Positions 965 to 4,988 of a stretch of 33,465 bases of DNA are shown here, piece after piece; within the stretch, counting starts at the first letter, position 1; each line of letters opens with the position of its first letter. The DNA is from a virus. The DNA is taken from IMG/VR virus record IMGVR_UViG_3300045961_000021, positions 1 through 33,465 of that record; one strand, written 5' to 3'. A program made the position numbers and the translations under genes. The notes below the pieces were generated by a model that did no database searches, was not told the origin of the DNA, and worked only from the letters and a program-made list of their open reading frames with translations.

Positions 965-1089
965 GAGAGCTAACTTTTAATCAATGGCAAGAGCATTTAG
1001 CCAAAGAGCTTCAAAAGAATTACATCAAACTTAAACTTATTAAAAAAGATGAGAGAAACGTTCGAGCAATATCAAGAAAGAAATCCTAG
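961..1089 (+). CDS. Very small basic hypothetical protein
   Basis: A 42-codon frame, MRELTFNQWQEHLAKELQ and then a Lys/Arg-rich tail. Its ATG overlaps the stop of the upstream gene in ATGA, like the other junctions in this operon, and it fills the otherwise empty stretch before 1049. It overlaps the next gene by 41 nt in another frame, longer than usual here, which lowers confidence. Function unknown. Confidence 0.45.
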   Translation: MRELTFNQWQEHLAKELQKNYIKLKLIKKDERNVRAISRKKS

Positions 1090-1315
1090 AATATACAAAG
1101 AGTTTGTTCATTACACTTATCAAATGATTGGTGCAGGACAAAGTAAAATAGGAGCTAAAGCAATCTTTGAACGCATCCGCTGGGAATCTAAGATACAAAG
1201 CAACGATGAGTTTAAGATAAACAATAACTACTCAGCTGATTACGCTCGTAAATTCGAGCAAGACTTTCCGCACTTTGCTGGAATCTTTGAGAAGCGAGTG
1301 TGCAAAATGAGATAA
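1049..1315 (+). CDS. Conserved phage hypothetical protein (FEQYQERNPRIY type)
   Basis: An 88-residue protein with the pattern FEQYQERNPRIYKEF, then AGQSKIGAKAIFERIRWES, then NNNYSADYARKFEQDFP. I associate this pattern (N-P-x-I-Y, an IRWE-type stretch, NNxYSxxYAR) with a small conserved protein widespread in phages of many hosts, usually among early genes and without a proven function. The start at 1049 lies just upstream of the conserved block and fits the family length. The stop (1313-1315) is followed directly by a promoter and the structured RNA, so it closes the first early operon. Confidence 0.72.
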   Translation: MRETFEQYQERNPRIYKEFVHYTYQMIGAGQSKIGAKAIFERIRWESKIQSNDEFKINNNYSADYARKFEQDFPHFAGIFEKRVCKMR

Positions 1316-1322
1316 TAATAGT

Positions 1323-1330
1323 TATCTTTG
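1323..1330 (+). promoter_or_regulatory. Host-type -7 box TATCTTTG
   Basis: TATCTTTG is an exact match to the Bacteroidota -7 consensus TAnnTTTG and lies in the short gap after the stop at 1315. No convincing -33 TTG is seen at the usual distance. Transcription should start near 1336-1338, just before the first hairpin of the structured RNA. Confidence 0.6.
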
Positions 1331-1336
1331 TAAACA

Positions 1337-1430
1337 ATAAGCCTAGAGGGTAGGAGTTCTAGGGTTATTTCAGGGTTAAAAAACCAAAGCCAGCTTGCAC
1401 TCCTACGCAATGTCTGGCTTTTTTTATTTT
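1337..1430 (+). ncRNA. Structured RNA or leader with two loop-complementary hairpins
   Basis: The gap before the replication gene folds into three hairpins. HP1 pairs CCTAGA (1342-1347) with TCTAGG (1358-1363) around a 10-nt loop GGGTAGGAGT. HP2 pairs GGTT (1374-1377) with AACC (1382-1385) around AAAA. HP3 pairs AAAGCCAG (1386-1393) with CTGGCTTT (1414-1421), and within it TTGC with GCAA, leaving an 8-nt apical loop ACTCCTAC (1399-1406). That loop is the exact complement of GTAGGAGT (1350-1357) in the HP1 loop, so a loop-loop kissing contact is predicted. HP3 is followed by a T-tract. The unit runs from a TATCTTTG box to a terminator, so it is either a roughly 90-nt small RNA or the leader of the gene at 1434. 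I know no named family for it. Confidence 0.7.
1386..1430 (+). terminator. Intrinsic terminator directly upstream of the replication gene
   Basis: An 8-bp stem AAAGCCAG/CTGGCTTT, extended by TTGC/GCAA, is followed by seven T, one A and four T (1419-1430). It ends only 3 nt before the ATG at 1434. It could end the small RNA or attenuate transcription into the initiator gene. Confidence 0.7.
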
Positions 1431-1433
1431 ACT

Positions 1434-2168
1434 ATGGCAGCATTTAGAAAAATATCGGTTTCCTTTTGGAGCGATTCATTCGTAGGCGAGCTAACTCCAG
1501 AGCAGAAATACTTTTATCTGTACTTGATGACAAACGACAAGACAACGCAATGCGGAATCTATGAGACATCAATTAGAAAGATTTGCTTTGATACTGGATA
1601 CAACTCAGAAACGGTACAGAAGTTGATTGATTTCTTTCAGGAAAAGAATAAGATCAGGTGGAGTAAATCTACCAATGAAATTGCTCTTTTAAATTGGGTA
1701 AAGTTTAATGATTCAAATTCTCCCAAAGTAATGGCTTGTGTTGAAAAAGAGCTTAAACAAGTCAAAAATAGAGTATTGATAGAGTATCTATACAGTATGG
1801 ATACATATCCACAAGAAGAAAAAGAAAAAGAAAAAGAAGAAGAACAAGAAGAAGAAGAAGTTTTGACTTTTAGAGATGAACTTTGGGAAATTTGGTTTAA
1901 GTATAAATCTGAAAAAAAGAATAAATATACACCAATGGGAAAGGCTAAATTATTTAATGAATGGAGGTATAAATCAGATGAAGAACTTGAGCTTGCAATT
2001 AATTATTCAATATCCAATAATTATCAAGGCTTATTTGCTCCTAAAAAATCAATTGAATCAAAACAACAATTAGGTAAATTAGAGCAAAATATGATAAGTT
2101 TGAAAAATGTTCACGACCAACTAACAGAAGAAATACAAAATGGAACTTTCGTTAATCCCTACAAATAG
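1434..2168 (+). CDS. DnaD/replication-initiator-like protein
   Basis: A 244-residue protein. Residues about 1-115 (FRKISVSFWSDSFVGELTPE, YLYLMTND, TQCGIYETS, a helix around residues 50-70, LLNWVKFND) match the winged-helix N-domain of phage replication initiators and replisome organisers. An acidic/lysine-rich low-complexity linker follows, then a C-terminal DnaD-like helical region (LWEIWFKYKSEKK, YTPMGKAKLFNEW, AINYSISNNYQGLF). The family binds the phage origin and recruits the helicase loader. ATG 1434 is preferred over a TTG at 1395, which would add residues encoded by the terminator hairpin. The start sits in a T-rich context right after the terminator, so expression may depend on read-through. 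It overlaps the next gene by 29 nt. Confidence 0.75.
   Translation: MAAFRKISVSFWSDSFVGELTPEQKYFYLYLMTNDKTTQCGIYETSIRKICFDTGYNSETVQKLIDFFQEKNKIRWSKSTNEIALLNWVKFNDSNSPKVMACVEKELKQVKNRVLIEYLYSMDTYPQEEKEKEKEEEQEEEEVLTFRDELWEIWFKYKSEKKNKYTPMGKAKLFNEWRYKSDEELELAINYSISNNYQGLFAPKKSIESKQQLGKLEQNMISLKNVHDQLTEEIQNGTFVNPYK
1813..1860 (+). repeat. GAAAAA/GAA microsatellite inside the replication gene
   Basis: A purine tract built from GAAAAA and then GAA units encodes a Glu/Lys linker between the two domains of the initiator-like protein. Unit changes in multiples of 3 nt would only alter linker length. Confidence 0.7.
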
Positions 2169-4886: not shown

Positions 4887-4988
4887 AGTCAGGTGGTGAA
4901 ATGGTAAACGCAAGGACAGTAGGTTGCATAAACCAGCTTATAAAAGAGTAATCCGAAAATGTTACAGGTTCGAATCCTGTCCTGACTA
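4887..4988 (+). tRNA. tRNA-like gene with abnormal anticodon region
   Basis: The tRNA frame is clear. The 7-bp acceptor stem is AGTCAGG (4887-4893) with CCTGACT (4981-4987). The D-arm is GTG (4896-4898) with CGC (4909-4911) and the loop has GGT. The T-arm is ACAGG-TTCGAAT-CCTGT (4964-4980). No full CCA is encoded. Between the D-arm and T-arm there are 51 nt, more than even a long-variable-arm tRNA normally has. The best anticodon-like hairpin is GGT-TGCATAA-ACC (4922-4934), extended by AG.T/G.CT pairs with an A-A mismatch. It offers CAT but with G, not T, at position 33. GGA (4914-4916) can also pair with TCC (4952-4954) outside it. It could be an intron-like insertion, a degenerate tRNA, or a tRNA mimic. 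Identity is unassigned. Confidence 0.65.

Follow-up and report, generated by a model that had tools for sequence, protein, structure and literature searches.

What is the compact RNA encoded directly before the replication genes of this virus, and is the perfect match between two of its hairpin loops a coincidence or the product of selection? The window analysed here is a virus record of 33,465 bases, and the unit in question (1335-1425, + strand) lies in it between the gene of a small protein and a DnaD-like, or replisome-organizer, gene. It runs from promoter to terminator and is predicted to specify an RNA of about 88 nt, composed of three hairpins (HP1, HP2, and HP3) and ending in a T-run (Table 1). 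The element GTAGGAGT in the first loop is the exact 8-nt reverse complement of ACTCCTAC, the loop of the terminator hairpin. The HP1 core, HP2, HP3, and both loops, with their exact complementarity, were found where the initial annotation of the window had placed them. The extent of HP1 had to be revised: the core was right, but the full hairpin is longer, with an outer 5 bp beyond a G.G mismatch.

Table 1. Features of the RNA unit and its flanking genes (window coordinates).
Feature	Positions	Strand	Details
Upstream small gene	1049-1315	+	88 aa; PHROG 13625, unknown function (E 4.8e-25)
-7 promoter box TATCTTTG	1323-1330	+	Bacteroidota TAnnTTTG type
HP1	1336-1369	+	5 bp, G1341/G1364 purine-purine mismatch, 6 bp, 10-nt loop; core 1342-1363
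HP1 loop GGGTAGGAGT	1348-1357	+	pairing element at 1350-1357
HP2, small hairpin GGTT-AAAA-AACC	1374-1385	+	MFE fold
HP3, terminator hairpin	1386-1421	+	inner 3-4 bp stem, 8-nt loop; paired, with compensatory changes in homologues
HP3 loop	1399-1406	+	partner of 1350-1357
T-run of intrinsic terminator	1419-1425	+	from sequence
DnaD-like / replisome-organizer gene	1434-2168	+	ATG 1434 after terminator; PHROG 6251 (E 1.2e-43), PHROG 1701 (E 2.2e-29)

The unit had been described as bounded by the promoter box TATCTTTG and an intrinsic terminator; both were located, and both are conserved in homologues. Since the box of mapped Flavobacterium psychrophilum promoters occupies -12 to -5 (PMC9723704), its position in the window places the expected start of the RNA at about 1335, instead of at 1337 as previously proposed. 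A TAnnTT box lies upstream of 152 of the 157 distinct homologues, and in 131 its end falls 4-7 nt before the base of HP1. Most of these boxes read TATATTTG. About 30 of the 157 (e.g., L017 and L018) read TATATTGC/T, which comes near TAnnTTGY, the SM5 motif assigned to an alternative sigma factor (PMC9723704). The promoter box and T-run occur on the + strand only, and minus-strand matches of the covariance model reflect the palindromic nature of the hairpins. As a conserved, GC-rich hairpin with a T-run behind it and a gene downstream, HP3 has the form of an intrinsic terminator or attenuator. The mismatch between the two stem segments of HP1 (1341/1364 in the window), mostly G.G or A.G, is kept in most class I members and is a possible protein-binding or hinge site.

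The loop complementarity had been called very unlikely by chance, which is an overstatement for a single sequence. First-order Markov versions of the 33-kb window contain about 0.3 8-nt and 1.5 7-nt complementary loop pairs (counted within 90 nt for stems of 5 bp or more), so that about 0.3-1.5 comparable pairs are expected in a single window, and the fold as a whole reaches a z of only -1.5. Taken alone, the locus would leave room for two unrelated hairpins that happen to match, and the argument has to come from homologues.

Immediately before the genes for relatives of the downstream protein there is a comparable RNA, whose loops differ from those of the window but once more match each other. 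A first look was provided by alignment A1, made of 34 RNAs partly chosen by complementarity: 95.5% of its cells are paired, versus 34-50% after the partners have been shifted by 1-3 columns, and double changes occur in 19 of 33 pairs, including four of the eight loop-loop pairs. In HP1, 98.9% of the cells are paired and nine of 11 pairs have compensatory changes; the corresponding values for HP3 are 96-99% and six of 11. HP2 showed no double changes on A1; predicted folds contain it in 124 of 125 homologues, where the alternative stems GGTT/AACC, GGTG/CACC, GGTGA/TCACC, GGTA/TACC, and AGGTTA/TAACCT occur. The pair counts exclude the MAFFT alignment A2, in which the GTGGTAG group was misaligned.

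Because A1 was partly selected by complementarity, unbiased sets were gathered by protein homology and by an HP1-only pattern. A covariance model (R1) was built without the loop-loop pairing, i.e. blind to the tested feature, and run on loci collected by homology with DnaD-like, two Lin1244_N-type, and DUF6291 proteins, together with loci of the upstream gene. In all 125 distinct matches, the first and the last predicted loop are perfectly complementary over 6 nt or more, and in 115 of them over 7-8 nt; random re-pairing of the 125 loops gave on average 35 complementary pairs and at most 47 (500 shuffles). At least eight loop sequences are present among these 125 distinct class I RNAs, in which the 7-mers follow the scheme GU-NNN-AG / CU-NNN-AC with NNN being AGG, GAG, CGG, GGU, CAG, CGC, GGA, or CGU. 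An apparent exception to complementarity in a fixed-backbone scan of class I, L485, turned out to be unrelated sequence. We also rejected the idea that the loops mimic Shine-Dalgarno, anti-Shine-Dalgarno, or 16S sequence (ACTCCTACG): other members have CTCTCAC, CTCTGAC, CTACCAC, etc.

A second class, in which the polarity is reversed, carries CUCNNNAC in the HP1 loop and GUNNNGAG in the terminator loop. It was searched by HP1 sequence alone, leaving HP3 unconstrained, and the exact 8-nt complement was present downstream in 28 of 28 distinct cases, which use four loop codes. Among 97 protein-homology loci without R1 match, a simple detector reported a complementary loop pair with terminator in 41 (including a few false positives), versus five and one in two non-complementary controls. 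Further divergent groups have exactly seven paired loop letters, e.g., GUCGCAU/AUGCGAC (L045) and AUGGUAC/GUACCAU (L314-L336); in some of them, the MFE fold does not contain the inner hairpins. Chance is excluded because homologues conserve complementarity by compensatory change: it is kept in all class I and class II RNAs although their loops change, and in several divergent groups. This was the outcome that the initial annotation had required of homologues, and it makes a coincidental match between two unrelated hairpins practically inconceivable. The comparison shows selection on the predicted 7-8 bp helix that joins the HP1 loop to the loop of the terminator.

The loop code changes often. 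On a tree of 46 distinct DUF6291 initiator proteins it requires 17 changes (the minimum being 5), some of which fall between near-identical proteins. The class II RNAs L234 and L237 share 95.8% identity over 96 nt and differ at four places only, namely the two compensated loop positions of either side; the flanks upstream of them show no relationship (53%), and their downstream genes are 88% identical. Repeated switching of this kind is what one would expect of a specificity element; it could also partly reflect drift or the recombination of whole RNA cassettes.

The RNA had been assigned to the replication region, and this is borne out: it lies directly before the DnaD-like gene, and replication initiators usually follow it in relatives. 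The genes after the RNA encode DnaD-like, Lin1244_N, DUF6291, or HTH_36 proteins, or else a small ORF is inserted before the initiator; in L178, a contig of a Saprospiraceae MAG, the next gene encodes, by reading, a primase-helicase-like protein. Since unrelated initiator types follow the RNA, it is independent of initiator identity. The PHROG 13625 gene adjoins it in many relatives, and the RNA is present at 15 of the 16 loci found with the PHROG 13625 protein. There is one copy per phage contig of ~30-36 kb where this was checked. The constant association with the replication module, upstream of unrelated initiators, would also fit a terminated RNA that marks or primes an origin beside the initiator gene, like lambda OOP or ColE1 RNAII. 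We consider such a role improbable, as neither an AT-rich nor an iteron sequence was seen to be conserved next to the RNA, which ends at a strong terminator, and the diversity of the loops would be left unexplained.

The distance between the end of the RNA and the ATG is 4-13 nt in 158 of the 161 distinct loci, whichever gene follows; for other terminator-like hairpins of the same contigs, the median is 92 nt. This spacing is compatible with translation after read-through, because Bacteroidota do not use Shine-Dalgarno sequences and need an unstructured region around the start codon (PMC6847099). The original description of a compact promoter-to-terminator RNA is supported but incomplete: with the terminator so close to the start codon, the unit is also a leader or attenuator and not merely a free-standing sRNA, and any transcript coming from upstream has to cross the terminator. 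Loop-loop pairing in the leader of a replication initiator is a feature of the IncI-type repZ pseudoknot. The latter depends on a distinct antisense RNA, on a leader peptide, and on Shine-Dalgarno masking, none of which was seen for the window RNA. An activator pseudoknot of the replication mRNA, in which loop pairing promotes downstream translation as in IncI/IncB repZ leaders, would account for a loop-loop helix just before the initiator start codon; we find it very improbable, given that Bacteroidota have no Shine-Dalgarno sequence to unmask (PMC6847099), that HP3 is a terminator, and that no separate antisense RNA was recognised, in the absence of a dedicated scan for antisense promoters.

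Does the pairing take place within one molecule or between molecules? By a simple length estimate, when HP1, HP2, and HP3 are all formed the linker bridges an in-molecule loop-loop complex, in bent form, in only two of the 125 RNAs; when HP2 is melted, the kiss becomes feasible in 121. Kissing loops within a single RNA, as first proposed, therefore survive in part: the complementarity is kept, but with the three hairpins formed the in-molecule kiss looks sterically hard and is not the geometry to be favoured. Linker length and stem length are negatively correlated (r = -0.50, not corrected for relatedness), i.e. longer stems come without longer linkers. As the linker is too short with all stems formed, switching is favoured, or else pairing between molecules, which can do without a long linker and agrees with the dimer formation that the initial annotation had allowed for. 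In predicted nascent folds, pairing of GUAGGAGU with ACUCCUAC is best before the 3' arm of HP3 is made, and the complete terminator restores the three hairpins.

Two rival explanations bear on this geometry. The first is a purely intramolecular tertiary fold, whereby an in-RNA kiss stabilises or tunes the terminator and the changes in loops are neutral, compensated drift. It becomes feasible once HP2 melts, the computed energy of the loop duplex (-11.0 kcal/mol in the window, -7.6 to -11.9 kcal/mol across RNAs) is in its favour, and the stem pairs of HP1 also covary. We nevertheless think it unlikely: HP2, predicted in nearly all homologues, would have to open, longer stems are not matched by longer linkers, and the loops switch repeatedly between very close relatives. 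The second is a self-assembling free RNA without a role in attenuation, whose loops pair between molecules to give a closed homodimer or ring; like phi29 prohead RNA (pRNA) or GOLLD/ROOL, this would be a particle that binds proteins or acts as a scaffold. There are known examples of kissing-loop RNA oligomers (PMC7357161), and the short linkers between three nearly abutting hairpins, the lack of linker growth with stem length, the mostly purine-purine mismatch of HP1, and the occurrence once per genome with a promoter and a terminator of its own would all suit such a particle. Yet it needs neither a start codon within 4-13 nt nor a position at replication genes, and we give it no more than a small chance of being right.

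It is probable, by inference, that the RNA governs the timing of replication-gene expression. The reading we favour, tentatively and with a probability of roughly 0.38, is that of a conditional attenuator leader of the replication genes in which loop pairing provides specificity and copy number perhaps feeds back on expression; transcription, read-through, action in trans, and dimerisation are inferred. The arguments in its favour are the loop pairing kept in class I, class II, and the divergent groups, the close spacing to a start codon whatever the gene, the unrelated types of initiator that follow, the terminator that upstream transcripts must cross, the switch in nascent folds, the short linkers, and the 17 code changes on the tree. 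The promoter, the terminator, and the loop pairing are predictions that rest on comparison, and read-through, trans action, and copy-number sensing are inference. The process would involve 1) a short terminated RNA as one product; 2) read-through of a leaky terminator, yielding an mRNA for the replication gene, with the start codon about 10 nt downstream; 3) a decision between termination and read-through made by the loop pair, which would also carry the specificity; 4) capture of CUCNNAC by the HP1 loop while the nascent transcript still lacks the 3' arm of the terminator, an event that would favour read-through; 5) accumulation of terminated RNAs with phage copy number, these occupying the same loops in trans or dimerising; and 6) restoration of termination by this occupation or dimerisation, which would cap expression of the replication initiator. 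The loop code would prevent cross-talk between phages. The arrangement may be likened to plasmid copy control or to the CI RNA of phage P4, but with both complementary elements in one small RNA.

Some observations speak against an attenuator. No conserved extended antiterminator helix was seen, the complementarity ending at the loops; a virulent phage need not limit its own copy number; and the in-molecule kiss is possible with HP2 melted. A tyrosine integrase (PF00589) was found neither in the window record nor in 26 relatives, although these contigs may be incomplete. This suggests, without proving it, that phages with the RNA do not integrate, and, judged by the integrase alone, makes a P4-like role in lysogenic immunity unlikely. 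A different reading, possible if rather doubtful, is that of a self-recognising, bar-coded RNA: with both halves of the 7-8 bp loop code in one transcript, it would bind only its own kind and not the RNAs of other phages, measure copy number, and exclude or tolerate co-infecting relatives according to their code. Should the pairing occur between molecules, this would be one of the rare self-pairing small RNAs in nature, and it would give phages a way, based on RNA alone, of counting their genomes or of recognising relatives.

How does the RNA relate to known systems? In ColE1 RNAI/RNAII and other plasmid copy-control RNAs, a 7-nt loop-loop pairing lies next to replication control and the loop is the specificity determinant; the partners there are sense and antisense RNAs from opposite strands, whereas here one strand carries both loops. 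The c4 RNA of P1 and P7 is a same-strand antisense RNA of the P4 CI kind. The P4 CI RNA itself is a short same-strand antisense RNA from the leader of a replication operon, which acts by short complementary stretches and transcription termination (PMC4825925). The window RNA resembles CI and c4 in being a phage RNA in the leader of replication genes, on the same strand. However, the partners of CI, seqA and seqC, lie outside the CI RNA, whereas here both partners are loops of one ~88-nt RNA, one of them the terminator loop; the sequences are unrelated, and no tyrosine integrase was found in the 27 contigs examined. The phi29 pRNA is a small phage RNA with two mutually complementary loops that can pair between molecules (PMC7357161). 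It shares the two complementary loops with the window RNA, but pairs over 4 bp and serves packaging, as a ring on the packaging motor, whereas the helix predicted here has 7-8 bp and the RNA has a terminator end and lies at replication genes, not packaging genes. GOLLD and ROOL, bacterial and partly phage-borne ornate RNAs that form homo-oligomers (PMC12286853), are hundreds of nucleotides long, unlike the window RNA. By analogy, P4 CI and plasmid copy-control RNAs would be the nearest functional counterparts, and phi29 pRNA and the oligomeric ornate RNAs those for self-pairing.

The RNA belongs to none of these systems, because it lacks an Rfam match, holds both partners in one RNA, uses the terminator loop as a partner, and is located at replication genes. 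The sole Rfam 15 match in the window is a tRNA elsewhere, and a permissive search of 1300-1450 gave at most 17 bits, far under every threshold; the divergent members L180, L045, and L039 likewise match no Rfam family. This agrees with the earlier statement that no named family fits, and no description of such a phage RNA was found in the literature. Judged from its sequence, it is a previously unlisted RNA family located before the replication genes of many viruses of Bacteroidota-type bacteria. The family is spread over many phages, the replication initiators that it precedes are of four or more unrelated types, and the evolution of its loop-loop helix is unusually cleanly compensatory.

Among cultured phages, a BLASTN search with the RNA gave nothing relevant, and no such RNA is present at the loci located by tblastn in phages of Polaribacter, Flavobacterium, and Tenacibaculum (L445-L449). 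A draw of 395 genomes from the phylum Bacteroidota yielded one convincing copy, L178/L180 of the Saprospiraceae MAG, the only one in a bacterial assembly, on a contig that may be phage or prophage; weak matches in the same draw (L182-L188) were ordinary terminators by inspection. A divergent copy on the reverse strand of L138 (RNA at 659-743) is followed by a small unknown ORF, and its upstream neighbour encodes a 729-aa protein in which SNF2-type helicase and DNA methylase parts were recognised by eye only. The window (4887-4988, + strand) and L045 (3580-3696) also have Rfam tRNA matches of 40 and 35.8 bits, in which the acceptor, D, and T arms match; in the window, 46 nt stand in place of 17 model positions of the anticodon region. 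ARAGORN reports no tRNA for this element, which is possibly an intron-bearing tRNA or a tRNA-like element. Finally, the contigs 3300027969_000114 (59 kb; L075/L204 and L323/L438) and 3300043436_001856 (63 kb; L316 and L331) have about twice the usual length and contain two RNAs and two replication modules each; they probably represent either an assembly that fused two related genomes or a concatemer.
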